Of a DNA stretch of 64,000 nt, positions 5,474 to 27,671 are shown piece after piece. The translations under genes and the position numbers were made by a program. The notes under the pieces were generated by a model. It was not told where the DNA came from and searched no databases. It worked only from the letters and a program-made list of their open reading frames with translations. The stretch's first letter is position 1. Each line of letters begins with the position of its first letter. This DNA comes from Verrucomicrobia bacterium LW23 (GTDB lineage Bacteria > Verrucomicrobiota > Verrucomicrobiia > Methylacidiphilales > UBA1321): positions 372,001 through 436,000 of the forward strand of contig QAZA01000050.1 of the NCBI GenBank assembly GCA_003054695.1, given 5' to 3'.

Positions 5474-5519
5474 GCACTATTTATAGCTTTTGATTTCCCA
5501 CTCCTCTCTCCCCTTCTCC

Positions 5520-6632
5520 ATGTCAACCACCAGCCCTGTTGCCGAGCCCCACGTGCCCAAAACGCATCGCTACCCTCAGGATCCCGCCCCGGAAACGCCG
5601 CGCCCGGAGAACTGGCCGGCCGAGATCCGTGTCTCCGGCAATCGCCTGGTGGACGGCGCGGGGAGGGAGGTGTGGCTGCAGGGCCTGGCCATCCCGGGCC
5701 TGGAGATTCGCCCCGAAGGCCACGGCTGCGTGCTCTCCACCCGCGTGGGTATTGAGGACTGGAACGCCAACGTCATCCGCCTGGCGGTAAAGGACGAGTA
5801 CTGGTACGGCCACGGCAAGCCGGGCGGCGAAAGCGCCGGGCAGAGCGACGGCGGCGCCGCCTATCGCGCCACGGTGGACGCCGCGGTAAACGTGGCGGCC
5901 AATCGCGGCGCGTATCTGGTGATCGACAACCACCGCTTCCGCGCCGTGCGCGAGGAGCAGCTGCAGTTCTGGAAGGATGTGGCCGAGATGTACAAGAATC
6001 ACCCGGCCGTGCTGTTCGATGTTATCAACGAGCCGCACGATATCTCCTGGGAGGTGTGGCGCAACGGCGGCGAGGTGGTGGAGCGCACAGCCAAGGTGGA
6101 CGAATCGGCCTTTCTCAGCGACGCGGAGAAGCAGAAGAACCAGTGCTTCCAATCCCCCGGCATGCAGCGGCTGGTGGATGTGATCCGCGCCACGGGTGCA
6201 CGCAACGTCATTATTGCCGGCGGCCTGGACTGGGCGTACGACCTGGAAGGCGTGGTGGACGGCTTTGCGCTGGACGACCCGCAGGGCAACGGCATCATGT
6301 ACTCCACGCACATTTACCCGTGGAAGACCGACTGGCAAAGCAAAGTGCTGCGCGCGGCGGCCCTGTACCCGCTGTTTGTGGGCGAGGTGGGCGCTGACAT
6401 CAAGAAGATGTCTTTCCTTCCCCTGGATCGCCAGGAGGACCCCTACACGTGGGGGCCGGACATGCTTGGCTTTATCCAGAAGTACCGCCTGAACTGGAGC
6501 GGCTGGTCCTTCCACACCTGGGCCACGCCCGTGATGCTTGAGGACTGGGACTACACGCCCACGCCCTTCTGGGGCGTCCCCGCCAGGGAGGCGCTGGCCG
6601 GCAAACCGTTTGAGCTGAGGCGGATGCGTTAG
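5520..6632 (+). CDS. Glycoside hydrolase family 5 (cellulase-type) enzyme
   Basis: 370 residues with a (beta/alpha)8 GH5 layout. The acid/base Glu171 lies in FDVINEPHD, the nucleophile Glu289 in LFVGEVGAD, and the family's conserved His is in YLVIDNHRF (residues 133-140) and STHIYPW (262-268). Retaining cleavage of beta-1,4-glucan or mannan is expected for the family; the substrate cannot be told. From the ATG at 5520 no signal peptide is visible; the first 35 residues are Pro-rich and hydrophilic, so the enzyme appears cytoplasmic and may act on imported oligosaccharides. An upstream Met at 5490 would not add a signal peptide. The stop overlaps the convergent M50-HlyD gene by four bases. Confidence 0.85.
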
Positions 6633-9052
6633 CAGGGACGGCACGCGCCCAAAAGCAGCCCGCCAACGGCCAGGGTAGCGGTGCGATGTAGTGGGTGTCG
6701 ACATTCGACTACCGTGGGATAACGCCTCGCCTTCTCCCCTCCGTGTAATCCGTGGCGAATAACTCCCCGTTTGAACTGAATGTCAACCACGGCCCCATCC
6801 TCATGCCGCGCCCGATGGAACAGCCAGCGAAACGCGCCTTCCACCCATGCGGCCGCCACCTTCCACAGCGGCGTGGACTCCCCGCTGACGAAACGCGTGC
6901 GCACCACCTCGCCGGTGTGGATGCCCTCGGGCGGCGCGTCCTGAAAATAGGCCACCGCCTCAAACGCCGGGCTCAGCAGCTCGTACGAGGCGTAGGGATC
7001 CTTCCCCTTGTCATCGCGCGGCGCGGATGAATCCTCCTTGCGCTGCACCACCGCCAGCGGGCCGCCGGCCAGCGCCGTAAGCTCGGGGAAAGCAATATCG
7101 CGCGAGCCCCGCGAGGTGATGCGGTGCAGCACCGCCGTCGTCTCCCCGCGCCCGGGCAGGTAAACCTCCACGCGCCCGCCCAAACGGGCGCGGAAGGCAT
7201 CTACCGCGTGTTGCGGAATCATCAGGCGAATCTCCGTCGCCGGCACCTGGCCCATGCGCAAAATCTCCTGGCCCGGATTGAGATACGAGCCGCGCCGCTG
7301 CGCCAGCTTCCAGGTCAGGATTGTGCCGTCGATCGGCGCCTCCACCCGCAGCGAGGCGATCATCTTCGCCTTCTCGGCCGTCTGCTTTCGCAAGGCGTTC
7401 AGGCTGGCCTCCTCGGCCTGAAAGGATGCGACATCTACATCGCTCTGACCGCCTTCGCGCTCGCGCGCCTCCAGGGCGGCGGCGGTTTTGGCCTCCTGGT
7501 ACAGCAGGCGCAGCTTAAGCACGCGCAAGGCGTTGGTTTCCTGCAAGTTACGCACGTCTACCAGCCATTCGCCGCGGCTTACCGTCTGGCCTTCGCGCAC
7601 AAAAACGTCGTTGATAAAGCCGGGCGCCTCGGCGCGCAGCACCACCATGTCCTTTACCTGCACCAGGCCGGGCGCCGTGGCCATGGGGTAGACGGGAATA
7701 AACGCAACAAGCGCAAGGGTGGCGAGGAGCAGCGCCAGGCGAAAAATCAACCGCATGCGCGATGATGCCCCCCAACCCTCCTGCGGTGCAAGCCCGGCGA
7801 AGAACCGCCAGATGCCCGGGCCAATCCACGTGACCGCGCACAGCAATCCCAGCACCAGCCCGCCGCCCCTCCACATCAGGGAGGCGCCGATGATCAGCAC
7901 CGCCATGGTCATCACGCGCCATACCAGCGCCGCGATGCCGTAGAGCAGCAGCACGGAGCGCTCCCACTCCGGCACCCCCACGGGCTCCTGCACGTCGGGG
8001 TCGCTCATCAGCCATCGCCGGCAAAAGCGGTTGATGGCCTGGTTGGAGCGCTGGTAGAGGTTGGGCATGCCCAGCAGGTCGGAGAGCAGGTAGTAGCCGT
8101 CAAAACGCATCAGCGGGTTGAGATTGAACAGGACGGTGGTAACGCCCGCGATAATGACCGTTTTGTACGCCAGCGTATTGGCAAAGCTCTCCTGCGAATG
8201 CGCCCAGTACAGGGCGGCCAGCGACGCCACGAAGACCTCCACCCACAGCCCGCCAAACGTTACGTGCATACGCTGCCAGCGAGAGGGCAGCGCCCAGCTC
8301 GCCGTAGCGTCCACGTATGTAATGGGCATAAAAAGGATGAACGTGAACCCCGCCTCGCGCACGCGGCAGCCATAGTATTTGCACACCAGTCCATGCCCAA
8401 ACTCATGCACCACCTTCAGCGCCGCCCAAATGGCCAGCAGCACCCAGCCATCCTGCGGATTAAGTACGCCACCCGCCATGGTTTGGAAGCGATGCCAGTT
8501 CCACAGCACGCTCCACAGCCCCGCCAGGACCACGGCCAGCCAGGGGATCCACATGACCGGGTGGCACAGCCAGCCCAGAACGGAAGCCGATGCGGTAAAA
8601 ATCCAGTCCGGGCTGCCCAGCGGCACGCGCAGAAAGAGGAAGTTGCTCAGCTCCATCGCCCGGCGCTTCTTGCGCGTGTCGGCGTCCTCCACGGCCACCT
8701 CGTTGGTCGTCGCGTCAAAGTCGACCAGGTGATTGTGTACCAGCCAGCGGGTGAGGACGAGCGCCTCCTGCTCCGTAATCGCCTCGCCACCCGCCGAGAG
8801 CGACGCCCGGGCAAACGCCTCGGAGATGGTGCGGCGGCCGTCAAGAAATGTCATAAAGACATACTCCGGCAACCCTACCTGGTGAAACTTGCTGTGCAGG
8901 GGATCCTCCACCAGCGCGTACCGGCCGCCGCTGTAGTCCTGAAACGTCACCCGCAGGCCGCGCCGGAGCCGGGGCCGCGTGGCGCGCAGCTCGCGCACGG
9001 AAATATCCGCCGCGGCCGGCTTCGCTTCCATATCCGCAAGGGGCAAGTGCAT
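6629..9052 (-). CDS. PqqD-like / M50 site-2-type protease / HlyD fusion
   Basis: 807 residues. Residues 30-110 resemble a PqqD-like winged domain. Residues 160-455 hold about six membrane segments with the zinc motif HEFGH (216-220) and the second M50 motif [16 protein letters not shown] (310-325). From about 465 a periplasmic HlyD-type adaptor follows ([20 protein letters not shown], then a coiled coil and a second half-lipoyl segment). The protein could both bind or clip a polypeptide in the inner membrane and reach towards TolC. It is the last gene of the tolC-giant-secA block, 16 bp after the GAF-HlyD gene, with AAGGGG seven bases before the ATG. The last 30-40 residues look non-native: they are encoded by a dispersed-repeat fragment (6696-6758). 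Confidence 0.85.
6696..6758. repeat. Dispersed repeat fragment inside the 3' end of the M50-HlyD gene
   Basis: TGTCGACATTC (6696-6706) and CCGTGTAATCCGTGGCGA (6741-6758) lie within the last codons of the M50-HlyD gene. The first block recurs exactly at 47996-48006, where it is followed by a related CTGTCATCTGTGGCC block, showing that this is a genome-dispersed unit and not protein-driven conservation. Confidence 0.5.
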
Positions 9053-9068
9053 GGCGATTCCCCTTTCC

Positions 9069-11141: not shown

Positions 11142-11215
11142 CGGTGGCAGCTCCGGCTCATAAGGTTACGCAGGGAATCGGCGACCGCCGGATCAGGCCA
11201 GCCGCGGGGGGGACG

Positions 11216-11536
11216 TTACAGGCGGGGCAGCGAGGCACCCGACTGAGGCGGAGCGGACGGGCGGGCCGAGGCGGTTACGGTCGTGCGGCCCAGCGATTGC
11301 TCCAGCGCCTGCAAAAAGCGGCGCGCCGCCGAGGGCGACATGGCAATGCGGGTATGCACGCTCAGCACGGCCTCCTGGCCGTTGGGATCGCGCAGCACGC
11401 CCGAGGAGAAATCGAGGAACACTTCCTCCGCGGAGGCATTGATGATCACCTGGCTCGCATACTTGGCGGACAGGTCGTCGTACTTCACTCTTAGCTGCAC
11501 CTGACCGGCGCCGCCTTTGCTGTTTCCATCTTCCAT
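11216..11536 (-). CDS. DUF3467 family protein
   Basis: 106 residues from the ATG at 11536. The pattern QVQLRVKYDDLSAKYASQ, then EEVFLDFSSG and the C-terminal segment TRIAMSPSAARRFLQALEQ matches the small DUF3467 family, whose function is unknown. An upstream in-frame start at 11590 would add 18 residues not typical of the family. The tail is Ala/Pro/Ser-rich. It sits between the SecA-like and GAF-HlyD genes on the same strand, which suggests a soluble part or chaperone of the same machine; this is inference from position only. Confidence 0.75.
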   Translation of the reverse strand: MEDGNSKGGAGQVQLRVKYDDLSAKYASQVIINASAEEVFLDFSSGVLRDPNGQEAVLSVHTRIAMSPSAARRFLQALEQSLGRTTVTASARPSAPPQSGASLPRL

Positions 11537-11617
11537 AGTGGTTGGATGATAGGCCCGCGTGAGCGAGGTATCAAGTGTTAACTCGCACATTGCGAACCAT
11601 TGAGTACATAAACAAAA

Positions 11618-13522
11618 TTAAGTATACGCAAAGTGGCGCTTCAGCTTCAGAAACTGCTCGTCGTGCCGGGCGGTCTGCCGACGCAACGCGCGTTGCGTGG
11701 CTTCCACCTCGCGCTGCACCCGCTGGGCCAGGCGGGCCAGGCCGGGGCTGACTTCGCCGCCCGCGCCGGCGCGGGCGCGGCGGATGGTTTCGCCCTGCTT
11801 CTTGCCATAATTCGCGAACAGGTAATCGTCGGCGGAGAGGAAGAAGCGCGCGGTGCCGGGCTCGCCCTGGCGACCGGCGCGGCCGGCAAGCTGCCGGTCC
11901 AGGCGGGGGGAGTCGTAGCGCTCCTGGCCCAGCACCATCAGGCCGCCAAGCTCCAGCGCCTCCTTCTGCACCTTGATATCCGTGCCGCGGCCGACCATGT
12001 TGGTGACGATGGTGATGCGGCCCAGCTCCCCTGCCCGCGCCACAAGCTCGGCCTCCTGCTCATCCAGCCGGGCGTTGATGACGCACGCATCCACGCCGGC
12101 GGCGCGCAGCAGCTCCGCCAGCTCCTCGCTGCGCTGCACACTGCGGGTGCCCGCCAGGATGGGCTGGCCGGTGGAGTGGCGGGCGCAAATCTCCTGCACG
12201 TAGGCGGCCATCTTTTCGTCCCAGGTGCGGAACACTCTGTCCGGCAAGTACTTGAGGCGCAGCGGGCGGTGGCGTTCCACGTAGTGGATGGAGAGATCGT
12301 AGCACTCGCGCATTTCGCCCGCGCATTCGCGGGCGGTGCCGGTCATCCCGCACAAGTGTGCGTAACGGCGAAAAAACAGCTGCCGCGACATGCTCACCTC
12401 CGACAGCGTCTCCGGCGAGATGCTGGCGCCTTCCTTCGCCTCCACCGCCTGGTGCAGGCCCTCGCGCCACTTGCGGTCCGCAAAGCCGCGGCCGGTGTTC
12501 TCGTCGATGATCTCGACCTTGTCCTTGCGCACCAGGTAGTGGGCGTTCAGCTCAAAGCAGTGGCGAGCGCGCAGGGCCTGCTCCAGGTAAAAGTGCCAGG
12601 CGCGGGTAAGCACCTCCGGGTCGGGCGGGCGGAACTCCGCGGTGTAAACCTTCTTGATGCCGGGCGGCAGCAGGGCTACGAGGCGCCTGGGCACGTCCAG
12701 CTCAAAGTCTATGTCCTTCTCCAGCCGCTCGGCCAGCTTGTCGGCGCAGAGGTAGGCGCTCTCCGACGGATTTTTGGTGCCGGAGGGCGGGCTGATGATC
12801 AGCGGCGTTACGGCCTCGTCGATCAGCACGCTGTCGATTTCGTCCACCACGGCGTGGCGGGCCTGCCGCTGCACGGTGTCCGAGCCCGGGGTGGCGGAGC
12901 CCAGCAGGCGGCCGGCCAGCTCGGCGCCCAGCTCCTGCCTGCGGCCACCCAGCAGCTTTAGCTGGTCGCGCAGGTAGTCGAAGCCGAACTCGTAGCCGGT
13001 GCCGTAGGTGACGTCCGCCTGGTAGGCCAGGCGCTTTTTGTCGTTGTTATCCTTCTCGCGCAGCACGCCGAGGGTAATGCCGAAGAAATCGAGAATGGGC
13101 CGGATAATCTCCGCATCGCGCTCGGCCAGGTAGCGATTGACCGTGGCCACGTGCACGCCGCCGCCCCGCAGGGAGAGGTACGCGGCCGCCAGCCCGGCGA
13201 CAAGCGTTTTGCCCTCGCCGGTGGCCATCTCGGCGATCATCCGCGTGCCCATGCACAGGGCGCCTTCCATCTGCACGTCGTAGGGGCGCATGCCGGTGGT
13301 GCGCCGGGCTGCCTCGCGCAGCATCGCAAAGGCCTGCGTGGTGGCGCGGGCGCCAGGTATGCCGGAGCCGCCGCGCACAGCCTCCGCCCTCAGTCGCGCC
13401 CAGTCCTCTCGAAGCTGCTCGTCGGTGCGCGCCCGCACGGCCGCCTCCTCCCGGGCAATGGCAGAGCACAGCCCTCGCAGGCGCGAGGCGTTGGTGAAGG
13501 GAAGGTACCGGGCTAACTTCAT
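11618..13522 (-). CDS. Truncated SecA-like ATPase (second SecA)
   Basis: 634 residues, against about 850-900 for housekeeping SecA. Walker A is MATGEGKT (99-106), Walker B VVDEIDSVLIDEA (225-237), followed by a short preprotein-binding region (about 245-380), CGMTGTARE (391-399) and a complete second motor half with NMVGRGTDI (508-516) and RQLAGRAGRQG (543-553). The protein ends just after the start of the long scaffold helix (LAQRVQREVEA to the stop), so the helical wing, the two-helix finger and the zinc-binding C-terminal linker are missing. The start at 13522 fits the SecA N-terminus; 13597 would add a Pro/Arg-rich lead. It directly follows the giant DUF11 gene (about 80 bp) and is the only energy-coupling protein in the block. 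Confidence 0.9.
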   Translation of the reverse strand: MKLARYLPFTNASRLRGLCSAIAREEAAVRARTDEQLREDWARLRAEAVRGGSGIPGARATTQAFAMLREAARRTTGMRPYDVQMEGALCMGTRMIAEMATGEGKTLVAGLAAAYLSLRGGGVHVATVNRYLAERDAEIIRPILDFFGITLGVLREKDNNDKKRLAYQADVTYGTGYEFGFDYLRDQLKLLGGRRQELGAELAGRLLGSATPGSDTVQRQARHAVVDEIDSVLIDEAVTPLIISPPSGTKNPSESAYLCADKLAERLEKDIDFELDVPRRLVALLPPGIKKVYTAEFRPPDPEVLTRAWHFYLEQALRARHCFELNAHYLVRKDKVEIIDENTGRGFADRKWREGLHQAVEAKEGASISPETLSEVSMSRQLFFRRYAHLCGMTGTARECAGEMRECYDLSIHYVERHRPLRLKYLPDRVFRTWDEKMAAYVQEICARHSTGQPILAGTRSVQRSEELAELLRAAGVDACVINARLDEQEAELVARAGELGRITIVTNMVGRGTDIKVQKEALELGGLMVLGQERYDSPRLDRQLAGRAGRQGEPGTARFFLSADDYLFANYGKKQGETIRRARAGAGGEVSPGLARLAQRVQREVEATQRALRRQTARHDEQFLKLKRHFAYT

Positions 13523-13603
13523 GCGCAACAAGCATATCCGCAAACGCGGGGGGGGAGGGAAATCCGGAGTCCACTCCCCTGCCCGCGCCCAGGGCATCCC
13601 GCC

Positions 13604-16600: not shown

Positions 16601-19600
16601 CTGCACTTCAACGCGGAAGGTAACCGTGCCGCCCTCCGCGATATCCACAACGCCGCCCAGGCCGCCCGGGCCGTAGGAGATCGCAGAGTCGACATCCGTG
16701 CCGATGCCCGTCAGCAGCGTATAGACGCCGGGGTTGCCGATCGGATCGGGCTCCAGGAAGCCGAGGAAGGTGACGCCGGGTGGCAGAAGGCCGGCCAGGG
16801 AGACATCGTACGCGTTGCTGAACAGAGCGCCGGAGGCGGCGGTCAGCGTGATGTCGTAGTAGAATGTATCGCCCAGATTCAGCGAAGTCGTGCTGGGCGT
16901 GATGGTGATGTTAACCGAGGGCTCGACCACCGTGAGGGTGACCGGCGTGGCCGTGTCGCTCTCGCCCGGCTCGCCGACGATAAAGTCGCCGTCCAGGTCC
17001 GCATCTACCGAGACCGTGTTGGTGAGCGTGGTGCCCGCTGTGTTGGTGCCCACGTTCTCCACCAGCGCCGTGTAGCGCACGGAGAAGATGCCGGTGCCCA
17101 GGCCGCCGCCGGCCGGTACGGTAACGGAGTGGAAGTTGAACTGGAACTGACCGGCGCCGGGGCCGAAGGTGATGTCGCGGATGTCGATAATCTGGCCATT
17201 GGCATACGTAATGCCGCTGACGCCGACGGCTGTTACGCCCGCCGCGGACTCGAAGAAGATACCAGCATAACCCGTGTAGGACTGGGCTGTAGAGCTGGTG
17301 GCCGCAGTGGTGGCGCCTGGAACCAGAGACATGCCGGTGGGCAGGCTCTCGTGGATAAGCACGCCTGCGTCCGTGGCCGCATTGCCGCGGGTTGTGCCCT
17401 GTTGCAGCTCCACCGCCACGCGGTAGGTCGCCGTCTCGCCTATGACAACGTTGGTGCCGCCGGTGGACTCCACCGCGTTGGCGCCGTTGTCCTTCTGGCT
17501 CGTGTCGACCAGCGACTTGGTGACGTTGAGGCTGGAGGTGGTCGTCACCCCGGCGTCGTCTTCCACGGGGTCTGTGGTGCGCTCGAAGGCGCTGGTACCG
17601 GGCAGCGTGGTAGTCACCGCGCTGGCTGTGTTGGTGATCCCTGTGGTGCCCGGAGGCAGAGTGTTAAGGAGGTTTACCGTGAACGTCAGAGTTACCACCT
17701 CGTTCACCGCAATTCCGCCGGAGTGAGAGAGCGTTACGGTATTGCCAACCAGGTTAAAGGACCACCCCAGCGGCAGCGCACCGGCGGCGGCCGTCAGCAC
17801 GTCGAAGTAGCTGGCGTCCAGAAGGTCGGTCACGACGGTATCGTAGCCGGTTGACGTGCCCGTGTTGGTCAGCTGAATCTGGAACGTTACTGTATCGCCC
17901 GCATCGGCCGTCGCGGGGCTGATGGTCGTCTTCTCGATCTCCAGCACCGGCTCTACCACGGTGGCCGGGACAGGCGTGCCCGGCGTACCGGAGGGGCCGC
18001 CCTTGCCGTCGTTGTAGGCGATGGAGTTTTGAAGCTCGGTCTGGCCGCCCGGCAGGCCGCTGTTGGCGGGCACATCAAGTACGCGTGCCTGGAACTCGAT
18101 GGCAAACGTGTTTTGCGCTGTGCCAAGGCCGGCGCCAGCGCCGGAGGTGGCAATGATGGAGTTGAAGTTAATCGTGAGGATGCCGCCCGAGAAGGAGACA
18201 AAGGCGGTGCCAATCGTGCCGTTAAAGCCCAGCGGAAGGACGGACGCCGAGCCGGAGACGTAAGTAAGGCCGGCGGGCAGCAGATCCTGGATGATGAGAT
18301 CGGGCGTCTCGCCATCCGGCACGGTAACGGTAATGCGATAGGTGATCGTCTCGCCAATCGTCGCGACCGGCGTCGGATCGGCAGCGCCGTCGCCGTCGTT
18401 GTCGGCGATGCCCGTCGCGACGATCGTTTTCTCGGCGGAGAGACCGTCAGTCGTAAAGCTTACGGAGTCGGTCGCGCCGTAGTCGTTGAGACCGCCCGGG
18501 AACTGGCTGCCGTTGCGCTCCAGGATGCCCGTCGTGTCATCGCCGTCCACGCCGGCGGGCAGCGAGCTCCAGTAGACCGTGGCCGCGTTGGTGATCGTGG
18601 TTTCGACATCCACCGACCCGTTAATGATGGCCGAGATGGTGATCGTCAGCGTATCGTTAAACGCCAGGTTAAGCCCGGGCGTGTTGATGCTAAGCGTGCC
18701 GGTGACGTTGTTGTAGGTGAAGAAGCCCGCAACATTGCCCAGCAGCGCCGTTGTCGCCGTAAAGGTAACGCTGCCATAGGAGAAGTCCGACTGCAGGACA
18801 TCCGAGAAGGCCAGGTCGTAGGCCGTCTGGTCGCTCGTGTTATCGATGACAATGGTGTACGTTACGGTGTCGCCGCCGTCATTGCCCGCGGTCGTCAGCT
18901 GCTTGTCCAGCGTCAGCGTCGGCTCGGCTACAACCGGCACAGGCGTGTTGGCGTCCACCGTATCCGGAACCGTTCCGAGGCTGCTGTCGTTGCGCGTGTA
19001 GGTGAGTTGCGCGGAGGGATGCAACTGCGTGTTTTCCTGGTTACCCGCCACATTGTCCACGCGGCCTTCCACACGGATCACAAATGCGTTGTTGAGCGTG
19101 CCGGCGGAGGTGGGCACGGTGATGTCGCCCAGCGTAAAGGTGTAGGTCTGGCCAGTGGGATCGGCCCCCAGATCCTGCGTGATGATGAACGACGGGATGA
19201 TGCCTGTGCCGATTGCATTACTGCCGGTAAGCAGAGCGGACAGGCCGGACGAGACCAGAAGGTCCGCGTCGAGGTACGTCATGCCCGGCGGCAGGGTAAA
19301 GCTCACCACCACGTCCTGCGTTGTGCCTTCCGGCACGGTCACCAGGATGTCAAAAAACGCGTGCTCGCCAATCACCGTATCCGCGCCGGTGCTGCTGCCC
19401 AGCGACGTGTCGTCGTTGGTCAGCGTGCCGTCTTTCCACAACAGGTCGATGGTCGGAGCGCCAATGTGCAGCGTCTCGGTGTCGGAAGTCGTGTAGTCGT
19501 TCACGCCGCCGTCGCCCGTGCGCTCGCCAGTGGCGGTGCCGGGGGCCGTGGGGGTGCTGGTGACGGGCGTGGGAGTTGTGCCGGTACCAGTGGTGGTATT

Positions 19601-22600
19601 CACCGTCAGGCCCGGTCCGTTAACGCCGGTTGTGCTGGGCAGGCTTGTATAGCGCACGGAGGCGGTGTTGTCGATTTCGTCGCCCTCCAGCACGGTGTTG
19701 AGCACCAGCACCTGGTACGTAATGGTGAAGGATGCGCCCACTCCCAGGCTGCCGATCGTAAAGTCGATCGTGTTGTCGTCGTAATCCGGGTCGTCCACCG
19801 TAATGTTGGCGGGAAGCACCGAGATCGTGAGCGAGCCCGGCACCATATCCATGTAGAGTGACGGGATCAGATCCTGCACCCGGATATCGTACGCGGTTGC
19901 CGTGCCGGTGTTTTGGACGGTAATGGAGTACGTCACCACGTCGCTCTCGTCCGCCTGCGGCGGCGTGCCGGAAGGCACCGTAATGTCCTTATCGATGGTG
20001 AGCACCGGCTCGCGAATCGTCACGGTGACCGTGTTGGACGTACCCAGCGTCCGCGGCGAATCCCACGGCTCGTCCGTGCGTACCTGGAAGTTGTTGGCGC
20101 GGTTTACGCCGGACTGATTGCCGGAGATATTCGTGACAATGGCGTTGAACTCGATAACCACGTACTCCGCGTCGGCATCGCTATCGGAGTTCACCACATC
20201 GCCCATGTGGAACGAAATCGTGCCGCCATCCGAGCCGGTGGTGATGATATACGTCGACGGAATGCTGTACGTGTTGCCCAGCATGGGTACCGCGTTGCCC
20301 GTCATAAAGGCCGAGACATGCGTGGACGGAACGTTGGTGGATGTGATGCCGCCGCCGTTGGAGACAAACGCCAGCGTCGCCGTGCCATCGTTGATGAACT
20401 GCAGACCCGAGGGCAGGTCGTCAAAAAAACTCAGGTCGTAGGTGGTCCCCTCCGGAATCTGCCATACCAGCCGGTAGCGCACAATCTCGCCAATCACCAC
20501 GCTGCTCCCCGTGGTAGCCGCCACGCTGGTTGCCACAATCGCTTTGGAGGGCGTAGGGTTGGCCGTGACGATCGTCGCGTCGTCGTCGGGGTCCGTTTCC
20601 GTAAAGTCCGTGCCGCCGTTACTGCTGGCGTAGTTGGTGATGGTAGCGGTGTTGGTAATCGTCTGGTTTGGCGCCGCGCTGGTGGCGACGACGAGGTCGT
20701 ACACCACCACAATCATGTTGCTGCCGTCCGTCACCGGCGTGGAGGGGTCGAGTTGCCCCCTGCCGATCGCACCCGCGTCCGCGCCAACGGGGTTATCGTT
20801 AAGCGTTACCGTAAAGGTGGAGGCAACGCTGTCCCATACCAGGTCGTACGTACCGATCCCGCCGGCGGGGTTGTAACTGAGAAGCGTACCGTTGCCGCTG
20901 TACACCCGGAAGTTGGTGGCGGCAATGAACGCTGCCGCGCTGCCGTAAGCCCCGTTGGTCTGCGTAAACCCGGCGGGGATCGTATCCGTAAACGTCACGT
21001 CGTAGGCAGACGCACTGCCCGAGTTCGTGATCATGATGGCGTAGCGCACCGTATCCCCGGCGTCCGTGTTGGCGGCGGAGGTCAGGTTAATCGCACCAAA
21101 CGCCGCAATTGCCGCGTCGGTCATCGTACCCGTAAAGTCGGGCGTCGTGCCGGTCTCTGTAAACGCAACGCCGCCGGCGCTTGCCGCCGCCGTCTTGTCG
21201 GAGTCCACCACGCCCTTGACGATTTCCAGCACCGGTTCCTTAATCCGCACCTGCACAATGTCCGCATCCACCACCTTGGTGAGACCCGTGTTGAAGTAGG
21301 TCGCCACCATCTGGTTGGTGAGATAGAGCTCGTCCCGCATCGGGACGGAGGTCGTCGTCAGCGTAAAGTAGATGCGGACATCCGTGGGCGACGAGGTCGT
21401 CAGATCGAAGGTGCCCACATCCACCGTAAAGGAGTTGGTCGCCGCATCCCACGTCATCCCGGGTGTGTTGCCCGTAAGCAAGAAGTTGGCGTACACCGCA
21501 TCGGATACCACCAGGTACATGTCGCCCGCCGCCGGCACAAACCCGGCGCCCAGCGCGGCCCACATAGTATGGCTCATGTACGTAAACGTACCCGTTGCAA
21601 ACTCGGTTACCAGGAACTTGGGCAGCGGCACAAAGTCCGTAATCTCCAGCTGCTCGATGTCCGAGATCGGCAGGCTCATCGTCAGCTCGTAGGAGATCGT
21701 CTCACCTGCCGCAATGGCAGGCGGCGACGGGTACGCGGTGGAACCATTAACCGCGTAAACCTCCTTGTTCAGCTCCGGCGGGGGAACCACCACGCCCGCG
21801 CCGCTGTCGTCACTGACCTGGCTGCCGCCCGGCACATTCACCACGCCGTAAATATCCACCGTATTGCCTACGGAGTCCCCAATATCGATCGACGGATCGC
21901 CCGGATGCGGCCCCACATACTCCTGATTCGTATCCACCCTAAACGTGATGGAGCCGGTAGTGCCGGGGCTGTCGGTAAGCGGGCCAAAATACGCGCCGTC
22001 CAGCACGCCGTCCTCGCCCGGTATGCGGGCCAGGCGCGCCGACACATTAAACACAATAATCGTCTCACCCGCGCCAAGGCTGATCGTCCCCGCGCCCGGC
22101 ACCGTAATGGTGGTGGCCGTGGCACTGGTGTTGTAGTAGGTAACAAAATCGATGGAGCCGACGCTGGGCCCGTAATAACGCGTCTGCAAAAAGCCGCCGG
22201 GGATTACCGTATTGGTGGAAAGCGAGGCCTGCAGCGTGTTGTCAAAGTTGGTCGTGTGCGACGTGCCGTACTCCGTCCACGTAAAGGTGACGGGAGAGCC
22301 CGCCAGGAAAGTCTGGCCGTCGCCCAGCCGATCCACAATGTACAAGTCGTTGAACGAGAAGTAGTCCGACACCTGAAACTCCAGCTGGTACTCCAGCTCG
22401 TCCCCCGGCAAAAAGCCAGTCGTCCCGCCCACGTCGAGAGAGGGATTATCGACATTGGACACATACTTCTGGATTGCCAGCGAGCGGTCGATCAGCGTGT
22501 CGGTATTCGGCAAATCCCCCTCGTTAAGAGGATCCGGCGAGTCGATCAGGTCCTCACTGCCACCATCGTTCGTGCTGTTGCCGTTCAGATCGTACCACGC

Positions 22601-23746
22601 CGTGCCCGTAACGCCGTTGCGGGAGATGCTGGGCTGACCAGTGATGGGATCCAGCACCGGATCGCCGTTCACGCCGTCACCGTTGTCGCCGTCAAAGCCG
22701 GAGTTGGTGGGATCGCCCGAATCGTACGGCGCGCTGCCATCCGCGTCATCATGCTCAAACTCAGGCACATACGTGTCGTACTGGACAATAAAGTCTGTGC
22801 CCACCACACCACCCGTCCAGCCAATCGACGTAAGGTAAGCGCCCAGGTTAACGGTAAGAGTGCCACCCGGCTCCGAAGGCGTGCCGGCTGGGCTGAACGA
22901 CCAGTAAGTCGGAGGCACCGCCCCAATGGCCAGGCCGGTCGTCGGCGAGATAAACGTAACGTTGCCAACAAACATCAGGTTATTGGGCAGCTGATCGGTC
23001 AGCACAATGTCATGCACCATCTCCCCACTGGCCACGTCCACGGATAGCTGCCACGGCACATGAAAGTTTGAGCCGGTCGCCGTCTCGTCCTCGTGAATCA
23101 CCACGTCCTTGCCCACTTCCCACACTTTGGGCGTCACCGTACCCACATCCACGGCCGCCTCAATCACCGTCGTGCCCGTGGGTGTGTTGCCGTAGCGGAA
23201 GCCGCCGCCCACCTCAATCTCCAGATCCACGCCCACCTGAGCGCTCTCGGTGGCCTTGTTGGTTATGGCTGTAAACTCAACGTCCAGCGGCTCCTGATCC
23301 ACCACAAAACTGCCAAACGGCAGCTCGTAAATGTAGAACTCCTCACCCGCCGCCAGCGTAAACGTCTGCCCCGTAATGGCATGCGAATGGGTGCCGGGCG
23401 TGGTGTAGGCCTGCACCAGCTGCAGCGCGGTACCCAGGTACGTCGGCGCCCCCTGCAGGTCCACACCGTCCGGCGTCTTGATGTCGATATACGGCCCGTA
23501 ACCCGGGTTCGTCGCCCCGCCGGCGGAGGGATTCGTAAACGTTGCCGTAAACTGAAACTGCTCGTTAATCATCGGCCGGGCGTCGGACTCCGCCGTATCC
23601 GCGCTTCCTGGCTCCATATCCACCGTAACCACCGGCACCGCGTCAAACAGAATACGGTCCTCCAACGTCTCCATCAGCATGTTGCGGCGGGAAAACTGCA
23701 AGCCGTTACGACGAGAAGACAACAGTGAAGAAAACGACCAGGCCAT
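13604..23746 (-). CDS. Giant DUF11-repeat surface/adhesin-like protein with LEPR-XLL-like start
   Basis: 3,380 residues. No Sec signal peptide is visible. Residues 25-36 read METLEDRILFDA, a variant of the LEPR-XLL motif found at the start of large exported proteins in Planctomycetota and Verrucomicrobiota. A region around 340-400 has Asp/Gly/Asn-rich calcium-site-like stretches (FDGDNGDGVNGDP). About 15 DUF11-type beta-sandwich repeats follow; the first ten alternate between a form with NTGTATAYD-like and a form with VPEGTTYD-like central motifs, and the last five are all of the first form. The C-terminal 230 residues form a distinct end with an Ig-like stretch (YSGAADPGSTLVLEIF). I noticed no cysteine on reading it through, as is common for large one-step-secreted proteins. 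It lies between tolC and the SecA-like gene. Adhesion or envelope function is inferred. Confidence 0.9.
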   Translation of the reverse strand: MAWSFSSLLSSRRNGLQFSRRNMLMETLEDRILFDAVPVVTVDMEPGSADTAESDARPMINEQFQFTATFTNPSAGGATNPGYGPYIDIKTPDGVDLQGAPTYLGTALQLVQAYTTPGTHSHAITGQTFTLAAGEEFYIYELPFGSFVVDQEPLDVEFTAITNKATESAQVGVDLEIEVGGGFRYGNTPTGTTVIEAAVDVGTVTPKVWEVGKDVVIHEDETATGSNFHVPWQLSVDVASGEMVHDIVLTDQLPNNLMFVGNVTFISPTTGLAIGAVPPTYWSFSPAGTPSEPGGTLTVNLGAYLTSIGWTGGVVGTDFIVQYDTYVPEFEHDDADGSAPYDSGDPTNSGFDGDNGDGVNGDPVLDPITGQPSISRNGVTGTAWYDLNGNSTNDGGSEDLIDSPDPLNEGDLPNTDTLIDRSLAIQKYVSNVDNPSLDVGGTTGFLPGDELEYQLEFQVSDYFSFNDLYIVDRLGDGQTFLAGSPVTFTWTEYGTSHTTNFDNTLQASLSTNTVIPGGFLQTRYYGPSVGSIDFVTYYNTSATATTITVPGAGTISLGAGETIIVFNVSARLARIPGEDGVLDGAYFGPLTDSPGTTGSITFRVDTNQEYVGPHPGDPSIDIGDSVGNTVDIYGVVNVPGGSQVSDDSGAGVVVPPPELNKEVYAVNGSTAYPSPPAIAAGETISYELTMSLPISDIEQLEITDFVPLPKFLVTEFATGTFTYMSHTMWAALGAGFVPAAGDMYLVVSDAVYANFLLTGNTPGMTWDAATNSFTVDVGTFDLTTSSPTDVRIYFTLTTTSVPMRDELYLTNQMVATYFNTGLTKVVDADIVQVRIKEPVLEIVKGVVDSDKTAAASAGGVAFTETGTTPDFTGTMTDAAIAAFGAINLTSAANTDAGDTVRYAIMITNSGSASAYDVTFTDTIPAGFTQTNGAYGSAAAFIAATNFRVYSGNGTLLSYNPAGGIGTYDLVWDSVASTFTVTLNDNPVGADAGAIGRGQLDPSTPVTDGSNMIVVVYDLVVATSAAPNQTITNTATITNYASSNGGTDFTETDPDDDATIVTANPTPSKAIVATSVAATTGSSVVIGEIVRYRLVWQIPEGTTYDLSFFDDLPSGLQFINDGTATLAFVSNGGGITSTNVPSTHVSAFMTGNAVPMLGNTYSIPSTYIITTGSDGGTISFHMGDVVNSDSDADAEYVVIEFNAIVTNISGNQSGVNRANNFQVRTDEPWDSPRTLGTSNTVTVTIREPVLTIDKDITVPSGTPPQADESDVVTYSITVQNTGTATAYDIRVQDLIPSLYMDMVPGSLTISVLPANITVDDPDYDDNTIDFTIGSLGVGASFTITYQVLVLNTVLEGDEIDNTASVRYTSLPSTTGVNGPGLTVNTTTGTGTTPTPVTSTPTAPGTATGERTGDGGVNDYTTSDTETLHIGAPTIDLLWKDGTLTNDDTSLGSSTGADTVIGEHAFFDILVTVPEGTTQDVVVSFTLPPGMTYLDADLLVSSGLSALLTGSNAIGTGIIPSFIITQDLGADPTGQTYTFTLGDITVPTSAGTLNNAFVIRVEGRVDNVAGNQENTQLHPSAQLTYTRNDSSLGTVPDTVDANTPVPVVAEPTLTLDKQLTTAGNDGGDTVTYTIVIDNTSDQTAYDLAFSDVLQSDFSYGSVTFTATTALLGNVAGFFTYNNVTGTLSINTPGLNLAFNDTLTITISAIINGSVDVETTITNAATVYWSSLPAGVDGDDTTGILERNGSQFPGGLNDYGATDSVSFTTDGLSAEKTIVATGIADNDGDGAADPTPVATIGETITYRITVTVPDGETPDLIIQDLLPAGLTYVSGSASVLPLGFNGTIGTAFVSFSGGILTINFNSIIATSGAGAGLGTAQNTFAIEFQARVLDVPANSGLPGGQTELQNSIAYNDGKGGPSGTPGTPVPATVVEPVLEIEKTTISPATADAGDTVTFQIQLTNTGTSTGYDTVVTDLLDASYFDVLTAAAGALPLGWSFNLVGNTVTLSHSGGIAVNEVVTLTFTVNLLNTLPPGTTGITNTASAVTTTLPGTSAFERTTDPVEDDAGVTTTSSLNVTKSLVDTSQKDNGANAVESTGGTNVVIGETATYRVAVELQQGTTRGNAATDAGVLIHESLPTGMSLVPGATTAATSSTAQSYTGYAGIFFESAAGVTAVGVSGITYANGQIIDIRDITFGPGAGQFQFNFHSVTVPAGGGLGTGIFSVRYTALVENVGTNTAGTTLTNTVSVDADLDGDFIVGEPGESDTATPVTLTVVEPSVNITITPSTTSLNLGDTFYYDITLTAASGALFSNAYDVSLAGLLPPGVTFLGFLEPDPIGNPGVYTLLTGIGTDVDSAISYGPGGLGGVVDIAEGGTVTFRVEVQMTDNPYYIGGTYGTDDPLDAIPDNNTDQFTYTPSITWTSIDNSAPIQAPGTTGGTTGERDGSGGVNTYADNASSTITVVGADLSITKDDSLTQVVPGQTITYVVVVRNIGTSTATGLVVSDTLPLNAGTLVSISFNKYDSSGGFSGSGIVPVGSVGQVPESGTTPSSFTLSYANPSLAPINSLNAGEWVEFIITVQVDAVVDHGVEFITNTASVTFDQIAEDVTNGDTHGTPGDPDYHVEVNNNTASDTDFVDATPDLAVTKVAVDSLGNPLTDVNAGDFFTYVITVTNVGNQDLGTGYYMVDDLSQVLFVADYISGFDTTGAPIIVTPVISGTTYSFALSALAGSGGTQQFTLNFQALTPLPPYVNDFTNYVWVPTEFTTGDPLHPVDTDPTPGPSNPATPGGSPTGPVDVNDNVDQVTITLPTIPDLVVTKTVDTTLIELNEIFTYTITVTNIGNRSVDGLTVVDVLPPGLVVVDTDGGTLAFNSVTGNWEITWVMPGTFLGNNLDTYTFTVQAYLPNNSTASGYLTNTVTVTDDSFHGPGGNPPEVVFTNNSDTVLTPVRGADLRITKDDGLTTVVPGQSVTYMIRVTNFGTDTATGVRLTDILPQHLTLGSVLVNGVLVNPTLTSNGFVIPLANIRAGETVTIQVVTLLDSVVSAGFESMTNTVTVTHSIVDRTPENNTASDTDIVDALPGLQITKVANVVEAGPRDVVTYTITIVNPGNQDASDVVLTDDLDERIVTFLSATLGGRFNGDIISWELGTLAGGGGTITITVTVQVNLLYPFVSQLENTATTSYNEALSGPDPTPDNNTATAVVDLLPAFTYDSFSNFATWRPFGQGDEDRWGWDWNNLPYQPPMLTLAPMYSGAADPGSTLVLEIFNAMGVKVGTQTVVVDTGGNWLATFPSTILHDYPQTVVITEQPSPVEDASRSGFNLRTYFSPAINSSHFFYQQPDVNKVMSQMPQTVLENLYQGTRNPVQVGGEKYRYEFLSAQGTPSS

Positions 23747-23894
23747 GGCTAGTAAAGGTGGTTAAGTGTTTCGCACCGAAGGGGATTAAATTGCCGATAG
23801 ATTGTGCGGCTAATCATCACCAATATCCGCCAGTCGGCAGATTTGGATCATCAGGCTCGATTGATTGACGATTTGTCTATTTCCAAAGCTGAAA

Positions 23895-23918
23895 GCCGGC
23901 GTGCAAAGGCACACCGGC
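23895..23918 (-). terminator. Hairpin between tolC and the giant gene
   Basis: GCCGGCGTGC (23895-23904) and GCACACCGGC (23909-23918) pair over ten positions with one G-T wobble around a four-base loop. Read on the minus strand it lies about 26 bases after the tolC stop and is followed by TTTC and a second T-rich run. It resembles a weak intrinsic terminator or RNA-processing site, which would set the ratio of channel to cargo mRNA. Confidence 0.55.
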
Positions 23919-23944
23919 CATCTGCTGATGTCTCCAATCAGGGT

Positions 23945-26047
23945 TCAGGGCACGCCGGCATTCGCCAGCGGCTCGCCAGACGTCGCTTCGCCCTCCGACG
24001 CCGCTTTCTTCTCCTCCCGCTCCGGCTTCTCCTCAGCCGCCGCCTCCGCCGAAGCAGCCTTCTTCTCCTCCGCGGGAGCCTCCGGCGCTGCCGCCACCGG
24101 CTGCGAAGCAGCAGGCACTGGCGGCCCGGCCGTTGCCCCCTTGCTGCTGCGCGAGGCGGTGGAACCGCCCTTGCCCGCCGGTGCCTTCGCCGCCGCCGTC
24201 GTCACGGTCGTCGCCGAGGACCCCTTTTTCCGACCGCTACCCGACTCCGACACGGCAACCGGCTTGTTCGGTGCTCCGCTCGGCTTCGGCGCAATCGGCT
24301 CCTTCCCGCTGGGGGTGATCCGTTCCAGATGGTACTGCGGCAAGTTCATGTCGTCCTTCGACTTCTGCATGCGAACCTGCTCGTAACTCAGCAGCGTGCC
24401 CTGCGATTTCTGTAAGTTCGTCAGCGCCACGTTATAGGTGGCCACGCTCTTGAGGTACTCCTCCTCGTTCGCCGTCAGCCGGTCCTGCGCATTAAGAAGG
24501 CTGTCCAGGTAGGTGGAGCCCGTCATGTCGTTGCTCGACAAAATCACCGACTTGCGCGCCTTCAGGTCGTCCACTTCCTCGCGCGATGCCTCGTAACTGG
24601 CGTACTTGGCCTGAATATCGCGGTAAGCCGTCTTCACCTCGCGCACGGAAACCTTCACCTCCAGCAACACCGTGTCGATCGTCGTTTGCAGCTGGTTAAA
24701 CTGCTGGCGAAGCTCCAGCATGCGGCGCTTATGCCGGGCGCGGGCCTCGTTGTTCTCCAGCGGAAACTCCGCACGCACGCCGGCCATAACGCCCGGGCCA
24801 CCTTCGTCCCACTGGTTACTCCACGCATCGTAGCGGCGATTGTCGCCGGAAAGGCCGCTCATCCGGCCCTCCAGCATCAGGTTAAGCGACGGCAGCACCT
24901 CGTTCTTCTGCATCTTTTCGCGAATCATCGCCGCCTTGAGCTGCATAAAGCCCTGGGAGATTTCCGGCCGCGACGCAAGAGCCGTGGCGGCGGAGGCGCG
25001 CACATCCACCCGCACCTCGGCCGTCACCGGCTTGTTGCCCGGCAAAATTTCCGACGCGGAGCGCTCGCGCATGCCGGGGTCGCCCACCAGTGTCAGCAAC
25101 CGGTCCTGCGCGTTGCGAATGGCCGCCTCCGAGCGTATGAGGTCCGCCTTGCGGCTCTCAAACGAGGCGCGGGCCCGCATCGTCTGCGTGCGCACGGCGT
25201 CAATATCGCTGCGGCCTTCCAGTTCCGACACAATGTCGCCCGCCGAGTCGACGCCGCGCTTTTTGGAGTAGTACAAACCGCGCGCCAGGTGCAGCGCCCA
25301 GTAGCTGCGGGAGATCTCGAGCAGATGCGACTCCGCCTGGCGGACAAACTCCGCCCGCGCAATCTCACTGTCAATCTTGGCCACGCGTAGTACGGACGTG
25401 TTGTAGCACACACCCGCGCCCTTCAGCAGCGGCTGCACAATGCGCAGCGTCACCTCCGCACTGTTCTGGGGATCGGGCGTAAAATAAATGGAGTTGCTGT
25501 TGGTATGCGCAAGCCTCTCGGACACAGTAACTTCCGTACCTGTTACAAACTTCTTGCGAACGCCCGCCTCCACATAGGTCTCCTCCTGAATCAGCCGCGG
25601 GCCTCCAGAGGTAAGGATGCTGCCGGTTGGTTCATTGACCTTGTCGTAAGCTGTTTCAACAAAGAGGTTTGTGTCGAAAGGCCCCTTCGCTTCCTGGATA
25701 CCCGTCTCACGAATGGTAGGAATGTCACTAAACACGCGAATCTGCGACGAGTGGCGCAGCGCCGAGATAAACAAATCGTCCAGCCGATACTTCGTCGCGC
25801 CGGAGCCCCCCGAAATCGGCTTCTCCACCAGCTGCGCGGCCGGCGGCGCAAAGTCCTTCGGCACGGCCGGTAAGTCCTTGTTGGCGTAGCTCTTGGCATC
25901 CTGCTGGGCCAGCTTCTCCGCCTCGGATTTGTAGCCCTGGATGACGCCGCTGAACTGTGTCTGCAAATCCGGTTCGTTAGTACTACGCGGCGTGCAGCCC
26001 GTCAGCGTTGCGGCCAAAGCTAGCAGAGAGATCAGTTTGTACGTCAT
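23945..26047 (-). CDS. TolC-family outer-membrane lipoprotein
   Basis: 700 residues. A lipoprotein signal ends in LALAATLTGC, so the mature protein would start at Cys with a lipid anchor, as in the OprM/CusC branch. The middle 550 residues show the paired long helices of TolC channels (for example EITEVTV-type strands, QTMRARASFESRKADLIRSE, and the second-half YRDIQAKYASYEASREEVD). The final 110 residues are an Ala/Glu/Lys/Pro-rich low-complexity tail, which is absent from most TolC proteins and would lie in the periplasm. The start at 26047 has GAGAG close upstream; 26059 is an alternative that adds four residues. First gene of the minus-strand export block. Confidence 0.9.
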   Translation of the reverse strand: MTYKLISLLALAATLTGCTPRSTNEPDLQTQFSGVIQGYKSEAEKLAQQDAKSYANKDLPAVPKDFAPPAAQLVEKPISGGSGATKYRLDDLFISALRHSSQIRVFSDIPTIRETGIQEAKGPFDTNLFVETAYDKVNEPTGSILTSGGPRLIQEETYVEAGVRKKFVTGTEVTVSERLAHTNSNSIYFTPDPQNSAEVTLRIVQPLLKGAGVCYNTSVLRVAKIDSEIARAEFVRQAESHLLEISRSYWALHLARGLYYSKKRGVDSAGDIVSELEGRSDIDAVRTQTMRARASFESRKADLIRSEAAIRNAQDRLLTLVGDPGMRERSASEILPGNKPVTAEVRVDVRASAATALASRPEISQGFMQLKAAMIREKMQKNEVLPSLNLMLEGRMSGLSGDNRRYDAWSNQWDEGGPGVMAGVRAEFPLENNEARARHKRRMLELRQQFNQLQTTIDTVLLEVKVSVREVKTAYRDIQAKYASYEASREEVDDLKARKSVILSSNDMTGSTYLDSLLNAQDRLTANEEEYLKSVATYNVALTNLQKSQGTLLSYEQVRMQKSKDDMNLPQYHLERITPSGKEPIAPKPSGAPNKPVAVSESGSGRKKGSSATTVTTAAAKAPAGKGGSTASRSSKGATAGPPVPAASQPVAAAPEAPAEEKKAASAEAAAEEKPEREEKKAASEGEATSGEPLANAGVP

Positions 26048-26846
26048 GGGGTCTCTCATTTCTATGTTCAGTGTATATTACCAAAAATGTACTAAAATTG
26101 TACCAGTGAGTAAGCATGCAGCGCTTCCGCCTGCTTTCATAGATGGCTTGCTGTTGGTTTGAAGCGGTACGTGTGGGTACATTGCGTCGTACAACAGGCC
26201 ACGCACAATCTTTCCAACAACCGTTTCATAATTGCAAAACTTTATTTGCAAAAAGTCCCTAAAAGGAGGATTTTACCTCTGAAAAAATATATTTCGACGT
26301 AAAGTGAAATGATTCATTCTGAGTAAATGCTGTCGTTTACATTAACAACTAGCCAGGAACTCAGGCCGACATTAACTGCCTGTTAACCACTTATTAACTA
26401 AAGGCTGAGTTACACACTTAACTACAGCACTCCTCCATCGCACCCCAAAGCATGGATTCACTCATTCCCGCCTTATCGGTAGATTTACATGATAAGGGCT
26501 CATCTATACATATTCGCGCAATCACTACTCGCGCTCATTTCATTCACCCGTTTTAACTTTATGAATTTCTTCCAGGGTCACCATGAACCGCAATCATCAC
26601 CGGCCGAAAATTCTTCCCAAAATCCTCTACGGCGCCCGCCTCGATCGCCCTGAAACGGAAGATATTTCCTCTCTCAAGCGCTTTACCTTCAATTTGTTAC
26701 AGCCCGTCAATCCCGTAAACATTACGGAATTTATTTCCGTTCCTTTCTTCATCTCATCATTCACCGGTCCAACTCATTTTCAGCCTTTCACCAGCCTCTT
26801 CACCCTCCTTGCAGCTTAAGCGACACTCACCCAACACCCTCCCCGC
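26048..26846. other. AT-rich divergent promoter region (tolC / hlyD)
   Basis: About 800 bp, markedly more AT-rich than its surroundings, between the divergent tolC and hlyD-like genes. It should hold the promoters for both arms of the export system, but I could not pick a convincing -35/-10 pair. A short GAGG-ATTTTA-CCTC hairpin lies near 26267-26280. Its length, more than needed for two promoters, leaves room for regulatory sites or a small RNA. Confidence 0.5.
26583..26819 (+). CDS. Possible small protein upstream of hlyD (doubtful)
   Basis: A 78-residue open frame, Phe/Pro-rich in its second half (EFISVPFFISSFTGPTHFQP), starts 27 bases before the free HlyD-type gene's own leader begins. 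I recognise no family, and no clear Shine-Dalgarno sequence precedes it. It could be a leader peptide or simply a chance open frame in an AT-rich spacer. Confidence 0.15.
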   Translation: MNRNHHRPKILPKILYGARLDRPETEDISSLKRFTFNLLQPVNPVNITEFISVPFFISSFTGPTHFQPFTSLFTLLAA

Positions 26847-27671
26847 ATGGTCACTAGCCGTTCACTACTTATCCACTTTCTGGCCGCCATCCTCCTGACA
26901 CTGGGGACCGCGAGCCGGCTTATCGCCGCGCCGCCTTTTGGTTATACGGAGCCTTATCGCGAGGTTAAACTTGCGTTTCCGGAAACCGGTGTCATCAGCG
27001 AGCTGCTGGTTAAGGAGGGCGAAATCGCAAAGCAAGGCACCGTTCTCGCCCGACAAAACACCAGAATCTTTGAGAAAGACCTGGAGATTGCCCGCGCGGA
27101 AATCCGCATCCAGAGCGAGCGCCTGGACAAAATGAAGGCGGTCGGCAAGGGGCGCATCTCCGCGGATGAAATAACCAAGGCCGAGCTGGAGCTCATCGTC
27201 TCCCGCCTCAAAGCCCAGCGCACCGAGGCGCAGATCGACTACCTGACCCTGCGCGCGCCGTTTGACGGCGTGGTTAGCGAGGTTAAACGCGACGTGGCCG
27301 AAAGCGTGGGCCCCACCGTGCAGGTGATGACCCTGGTGCAGCTGGACAAGCTGGCCATCAAGATGTTTCTGCCGCCCGCCGTGGCCAAAAAGCTGGTTGT
27401 GGGCAAGCCTTACTCGTTAAGGATGCCGGAGCTTAACAAGGTCGTAACTGCCGAGCTCGAATTCATCTCCCCCGTGCACGACGCCGCCAGCAATACCGTG
27501 CGCGTGCGGTTTGTGCTGGCCAACCCGGACGGCACATGGAAAAGCGGCGTACGCTGCGAGCCCCAGTTCGGCCCCGCCATCCGCATGCCGGAAGCAGCCG
27601 ACGCCGAGGCGCCCGCGCAAACGGCCATGCCGCCCCCGGAGGCGAGGCCCGGCGAGAAGACCTATCAGTAA
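26847..27671 (+). CDS. Free HlyD/RND-type periplasmic adaptor
   Basis: 274 residues with an N-terminal signal sequence (LIHFLAAILLTLGTASR, cut near residue 30 at AAP). The first half-lipoyl motif is FPETGVISELLVKEGEIAKQ, a short coiled coil covers about 75-130, the second half-lipoyl motif is LRAPFDGVVSEVKRDVAE, and a beta-barrel domain follows. It is exported or anchored with no further membrane helix, so it is a compact membrane fusion protein that could bridge to the TolC-type channel. It is divergent from tolC across the long spacer and has no transporter gene of its own nearby. The last 25 residues are Ala/Pro-rich. Confidence 0.85.
   Translation: MVTSRSLLIHFLAAILLTLGTASRLIAAPPFGYTEPYREVKLAFPETGVISELLVKEGEIAKQGTVLARQNTRIFEKDLEIARAEIRIQSERLDKMKAVGKGRISADEITKAELELIVSRLKAQRTEAQIDYLTLRAPFDGVVSEVKRDVAESVGPTVQVMTLVQLDKLAIKMFLPPAVAKKLVVGKPYSLRMPELNKVVTAELEFISPVHDAASNTVRVRFVLANPDGTWKSGVRCEPQFGPAIRMPEAADAEAPAQTAMPPPEARPGEKTYQ

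Follow-up and report, generated by a model that had tools for sequence, protein, structure and literature searches.

A short SecA-like ATPase beside giant repeat proteins: a probable dedicated export locus in Verrucomicrobiota and on alphaproteobacterial plasmids

How might a bacterium carry a giant repeat protein across its envelope from a locus that encodes adaptors and an outer-membrane channel and neither an ABC nor an RND pump? The question is raised by a 64,000-nucleotide stretch of Verrucomicrobia bacterium LW23 (contig QAZA01000050.1, positions 372,001 to 436,000; hereafter the window), in which a six-gene run on the minus strand (window positions 6629–26059) encodes a TolC/OEP-family protein, a 3,380-residue repeat protein, a 659-residue SecA, a DUF3467 protein and two HlyD adaptor fusions, one with a GAF domain (GAF-HlyD) and one with an M50 protease (M50-HlyD); a third HlyD adaptor is divergent from the run. 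Finding the same gene set beside giant proteins with LEPR-type leaders in two phyla, we conclude from sequence that the block is probably a DUF3467-type secondary SecA_DEAD locus, a dedicated envelope-spanning exporter of a giant surface or secreted repeat protein. That SecA is its power source, and that the route leads through SecYEG or through M50-HlyD, we infer.

Secondary SecA_DEAD proteins lacking the SecA_SW domain were described in 2015 by Kamneva, Poudel & Ward (PMC4452313), in hosts that include Verrucomicrobia and Proteobacteria and in a conserved neighbourhood of HlyD, M50-HlyD, GAF-HlyD and sometimes OEP genes from which ABC homologues were absent. Those authors placed the clade beside Actinobacterial SecA2, proposed that SecA supplies the ATPase and M50 the pore, and termed the broader role of the locus completely unknown. 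One operon named in their paper is META1p2402-2399 of the laboratory strain Methylobacterium extorquens AM1, where META1p2400 is the short SecA. An earlier reading of the window from sequence alone (the sequence-only reading) had known of no characterised system with this composition; because both the composition and the idea of SecA as its ATPase date from 2015, the locus must be regarded as known in kind. The window shares with it the loss of SecA_SW, the adjoining M50-HlyD and GAF-HlyD genes, a further HlyD/biotin_lipoyl protein, the OEP gene and the absence of an ABC transporter, and differs in adding a DUF3467 gene and a putative cargo inside the operon. New here are the association with LEPR giants, their non-hydrophobic LE[P/D]R leader, the DUF3467 subtype, the PqqD domain, a finger-level map of the SecA and the existence of SecA-less relatives; the terms giant, LEPR, DUF3467, adhesin, DUF11 and cadherin are absent from the text of the 2015 paper. 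Our literature search, which took in no bioRxiv preprints and few subscription papers and leaves later prior art possible, turned up no publication that connects giants with the locus, and none that describes how LEPR-XLL giant proteins are exported.

The short SecA and its neighbours recur together. A protein search of 145 Verrucomicrobiota genomes with the short SecA returned 12 that hold a frame of 661–770 residues matched over most of its length, whereas canonical SecAs, nearly all of about 1,000 residues, matched only in part. M50-HlyD was present in the same 12 genomes, neither protein occurring elsewhere in the sample (p = 9e-18). In 11 of the 12 loci of other genomes (L033–L035, L037–L044), M50-HlyD and GAF-HlyD lie beside the short SecA, usually with an HlyD and a TolC gene; in the exception, L036, the M50-HlyD set is on a different contig of the same genome (L110). 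The arrangement TolC, HlyD, GAF-HlyD, M50-HlyD, SecA recurs, with variations, in loci L033–L044 and L098–L109, and every locus read is, as the sequence-only reading had noted for the LW23 block, free of ABC and RND pumps. A profile search of a second sample, a draw of 388 genomes, found M50-HlyD at E < 1e-140 in 24; all of these, together with G190 and G218, hold a short SecA (80 of the M50-HlyD genomes searched).

The giants follow the short SecA closely. The LEPR-XLL model (NF012209) matched at E <= 0.003 in 10 of the 12 short-SecA genomes and in 1 of the 133 others, with a Fisher p of 9e-13 that is indicative, since relatedness of the genomes is uncorrected; in the 388-genome draw, where genomes without any M50-HlyD were only partly tested for short SecA, the counts are 22 of 26 against 3 of 362. 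Those three matches are weak and lie in frames under 700 residues (G119:C151, G331:C34 and G269:C76, in genomes without a strong M50-HlyD); they may be chance. LEPR frames reach 20,466 residues, and in G045, G066, G091, G039, G290 and G218 the giant begins about 0.1–0.5 kb from the short SecA.

The association extends to alphaproteobacterial plasmids, and the recurrence beside giant LEPR-type proteins, which the sequence-only reading had named as what would support it, is strong and spans phyla. A Pontibrevibacter plasmid carries an LEPR giant, DUF3467, GAF-HlyD, a PqqD/M50-HlyD protein, a 661-residue short SecA and an adaptor; the order giant, DUF3467, adaptor(s), M50-HlyD, short SecA is found also on Mesorhizobium, Methylosinus (with TolC) and Pseudosulfitobacter plasmids. 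Giants on the plasmids of these four genera span 26.5–38.2 kb of coding sequence, and Rhodobacteraceae M382 has a shorter version of the operon.

What remains of SecA in these proteins? SecA_DEAD is present and SecA_SW absent in the window protein and 12 relatives (Pfam). Mapping on Escherichia coli SecA of 11 rows from Verrucomicrobiota, the window protein among them, and of five alphaproteobacterial short SecAs shows that NBD1, the PPXD, NBD2 and the greater part of the scaffold helix are retained; coverage of the helical wing (HWD) and the two-helix finger is 0%, and the C-tail is practically absent. Like SecA ATPases generally, they keep Walker A, Walker B, motif VI and the PPXD. All fall in one clade (support 0.998) that splits into three lineages, one of Verrucomicrobiota, one of Alphaproteobacteria and one with the window protein, and a slower tree likewise sets them all on one side of a 100/100 branch. 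An Actinomycetota protein (L045), the sole match in genome_contigs, was dropped as a canonical SecA with wing and finger. Many short SecAs end, after the scaffold helix, in a conserved short motif (D..L...L[A/S]F[T/A]G in several lineages) that could be a docking site. Second short-SecA genes occur in some genomes (G350:C382:1200-3038, G091:C1:2846329-2848266, G187:C1:2607986-2609779), G187 holding one short SecA of each subtype.

The putative cargo of the window holds 11 DUF11 and 5 isopeptide (K2N) domains, has no cysteine and is poor in lysine and arginine (K+R 2.6%), repeats and composition that might be expected of a secreted adhesin-like protein. The giants start with a short leader that has no hydrophobic core and leads into LE[P/D/E/Q]R-x-[L/M][L/F/Y]; the cargo bears the variant motif METLEDRILFDA at residues 25–36 (core LEDRILFDA), a motif of the same type stands at the same position in giants adjoining the operon in other genomes, and the DUF3467-type giant of G187 bears IETLEDRVLYNA. 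The C-terminal region of the cargo matches giants of G187 (E 1.1e-38) and G190 (E 1.6e-17) and, among the giants compared, is conserved only in those of DUF3467-type loci. Two of the giants contain 20–25 RTX repeats; the window cargo has none. With the LEPR-XLL (NF012209, LEPR-8K) giants it shares the N-terminal LExR-x-L[L/F] on a very large protein and the same adjoining genes; it differs in a LEDRILFDA core that scores below the model's cut-off and in being shorter than most.

Turning to the remaining components, M50-HlyD has its HExxH at residues 216–220 (about 8393–8407 of the window) and six hydrophobic stretches; the HExxH and D318 are invariant across 12 orthologues. It resembles the YydH/LiaK and daptide M50 proteases in being a multi-spanning, HExxH-bearing, profile-related protein, and differs in its fusion to HlyD, in that no peptide cassette was seen and in scoring below the family cut-offs (161 bits against 300 and 31 against 225 for the daptide and YydH/LiaK models). 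In alphaproteobacterial orthologues PqqD exceeds its cut-off (E down to 1.6e-6); the assignment is made from Pfam matches only, because the predicted fold of the domain is poor (pLDDT 43.5). The C-terminus of the window protein (6629–6850) is about 50 residues longer than those of its orthologues and meets a convergent open reading frame at 5490–6632. Matches resembling M50-HlyD were also seen in plasmid records of Escherichia (18), Citrobacter (8) and Streptomyces (9), and one distant M50 relative came from viral_contigs. GAF-HlyD has a single hydrophobic stretch (residues 423–441), and its GAF domain, sub-threshold in the window (E 0.044), is clear in 11 of 12 orthologues. DUF3467, single-copy in the LW23 genome and found in 1 of 140 Verrucomicrobiota genomes, shares an operon with other components in L104, L111, L113 and the alphaproteobacterial plasmids. 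It has no confident relative among solved structures; its reading as a SecB-like chaperone gained no support from hhalign to E. coli SecB (probability 0.2%), and the single-sequence fold (pLDDT 38.5) was unusable.

Reading-frame calls on the window returned each gene where the sequence-only reading had placed it, and the domain matches it had named hold, apart from the sub-threshold GAF (Table 1). Separated along the minus strand by 198, 6, 27, 74 and 16 bases, the six genes look like a single operon. HlyD_D23/HlyD_3 is matched in all three adaptors, and orthologues of the third, divergent in the window, lie within the operon in other genomes.

Table 1. Features of the SecA_DEAD locus in the window of Verrucomicrobia bacterium LW23
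Feature	Position	Strand	Evidence
PqqD-like/M50 protease/HlyD fusion, 807 aa	6629..9052	-	Peptidase_M50 E 1.3e-7, HlyD_D23 1e-7 (Pfam)
GAF-HlyD fusion, 690 aa	9069..11141	-	HlyD_D23 1.7e-15 (Pfam); GAF in 11/12 orthologues
DUF3467 protein, 124 aa, subtype marker	11216..11590	-	DUF3467 E 4.6e-10 (Pfam)
Short SecA-like ATPase, 659 aa; NBD1, PPXD, NBD2 and first part of scaffold helix, no HWD, two-helix finger or C-tail	11618..13597	-	SecA_DEAD 7.1e-88, P-loop_SecA 2.3e-49, SecA_PP_bind 5.8e-22
Putative cargo, 3,380 aa, DUF11 and isopeptide-domain repeats	13604..23746	-	Domain matches, composition
N-terminal cargo leader ending METLEDRILFDA	23639..23746	-	Lacks the hydrophobic core of a Sec signal peptide
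Cargo C-terminal region common to giants of DUF3467-type loci in G187 and G190	13610..14311	-	phmmer
TolC/OEP-family outer-membrane protein, 704 aa, lipoprotein-like N-terminus	23945..26059	-	OEP E 1.3e-23 (Pfam)
Third HlyD/RND-type adaptor, 274 aa, divergent	26847..27671	+	TIGR01730 E 3.3e-32, over cut-off

How, then, might such an exporter work? The steps proposed here are read from the anatomy of the proteins; composition, conservation, ATPase motifs, loss of finger and wing, the link to giants and the shared leader are what the sequences themselves support. Recognition of the giant's short non-hydrophobic LE[P/D]R-x-LL leader would take place in the cytosol; a plausible receptor is the PqqD-like domain of M50-HlyD, and DUF3467 may act as a small helper. 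The short SecA would clamp the unfolded chain through its PPXD and use ATP to drive it into a conduit across the inner membrane, for which M50-HlyD and the single housekeeping SecYEG are the two candidates; the M50 site may cut off the leader. The third adaptor and the HlyD parts of the two fusions would span the periplasm to the TolC-like channel, and the chain would leave in a single step, like a substrate of the type I secretion system (HlyB-HlyD-TolC). The locus resembles that system in its HlyD adaptors, TolC-family channel and large repeat cargo without a Sec signal, and in some relatives also in RTX repeats, but differs in its N-terminal leader, its M50 and GAF fusions, its SecA-family ATPase and its lack of an ABC transporter beside adaptor and channel. 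More tentatively, it might represent a separate class of one-step secretion: a finger-less SecA would push chains as long as about 20,000 residues through M50-HlyD as the inner-membrane conduit, no ABC pump and perhaps not even SecYEG would take part, and a PqqD-like domain would read the LE[P/D]R leader; this stronger version we regard as possible and somewhat doubtful.

A number of observations count against the SecA-powered exporter. In canonical SecA the finger enters the SecY funnel while the clamp holds the chain (PMC6599042), and the wing touches SecY (PMC7503281); finger and wing are exactly what the short SecA lacks. Some 54 genomes have a more distant M50-HlyD without a short SecA (80 searched). 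A Thalassospira plasmid of 908 kb carries an LEPR giant, DUF3467, HlyD, M50-HlyD, an adaptor and TolC and, across the plasmid (the chromosome was not searched), no short SecA; in Kosakonia, adaptors and a large protein occur with no SecA; and giants starting MYQLE[D/E]RILFD[G/A]A, possibly a further leader subtype, lie beside SecA-less M50-HlyD loci (L117:1-4525 in G006, L179 in G230, L186 in G117). The leader expression was matched beside 7 of 27 SecA-less loci (two being the same G006 gene) against 0 of 14 much shorter controls, which makes it a lead and not a test. The PqqD match is weak, and present in 5 of the 12 Verrucomicrobiota orthologues of M50-HlyD; the window cargo falls below the 17-bit cut-off of NF012209, which has no match in the LW23 genome. 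Finally, pumps exist elsewhere in that genome. The sequence-only reading had allowed that a pump just outside the window might be needed: for ABC exporters this finds no support on the whole 604-kb contig (C50), where ABC_membrane is absent, and ABC exporters are encoded on other contigs; the nearest RND pump (ACR_tran, matched in two pieces; C50:358845-362144) lies some 16 kb beyond the operon and, unlike the inner-membrane protein of an RND tripartite pump, is not beside the operon's adaptors, and many more are found elsewhere. Since SecA-less relatives exist, the short SecA is not strictly required by the adaptors and the leader, and it may be an addition suited to very long cargo. Of the original proposal, the recurrence of the gene set beside giants stands, and the powering by a truncated SecA is what we infer.

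Could the short SecA instead serve a two-step export? It would then be a SecA2-like helper of SecYEG that moves the giant, or another substrate, to the periplasm, with HlyD and TolC acting in a separate outer-membrane step. LW23 encodes, away from the window, a canonical SecA (983-residue frame) and one SecY, with no second SecY in the genome, and so presents, as in accessory Sec systems, a second SecA paralogue alongside the housekeeping one; the retained substrate-gripping PPXD and NBDs and the published placement beside Actinobacterial SecA2 also speak for this arrangement. Unlike accessory Sec, however, the locus has no SecY2 and is linked to HlyD and TolC genes, the giants lack a hydrophobic signal sequence, and the SecY-contacting wing and two-helix finger are missing from every short SecA checked. 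With a clamp and neither finger nor wing, a standard use of SecY would therefore not be expected, and we consider the two-step route unlikely.

Still less probable, in our judgement, is that the short SecA is a cytosolic holdase, unfoldase or quality-control ATPase for giants, export being energised by an ABC or RND pump elsewhere or by housekeeping SecA, as in the SecA-less relatives. Loci that combine these adaptors and similar leaders with no SecA would suit such a role, as would the ABC exporters and numerous RND pumps encoded elsewhere in LW23. Against it, 26 genomes show the short SecA in genetic linkage with the adaptors, the 12-kb stretches flanking the operons in Pontibrevibacter and Methylosinus contain neither an ABC nor an RND gene, and the window contig has none within 16 kb. 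A peptide-maturation cassette akin to those of ribosomally synthesized and post-translationally modified peptides or epipeptides, with PqqD and M50 acting on a peptide and the giant a bystander, would account for the PqqD domain and the kinship to daptide and YydH/LiaK proteases, but is highly improbable given that those matches fall short of cut-off, that no precursor peptide or modification enzyme was noted, and that the association with giants is far stronger.

The co-occurrence of giants with the locus joins two questions, the role of the locus described in 2015 and the export route of the LEPR-XLL giants. If a finger-less SecA does drive this export, it would set the clamp apart from the finger as the part of a SecA motor that bears force, and a non-ABC means of energising a TolC-type exporter would be added to those known.

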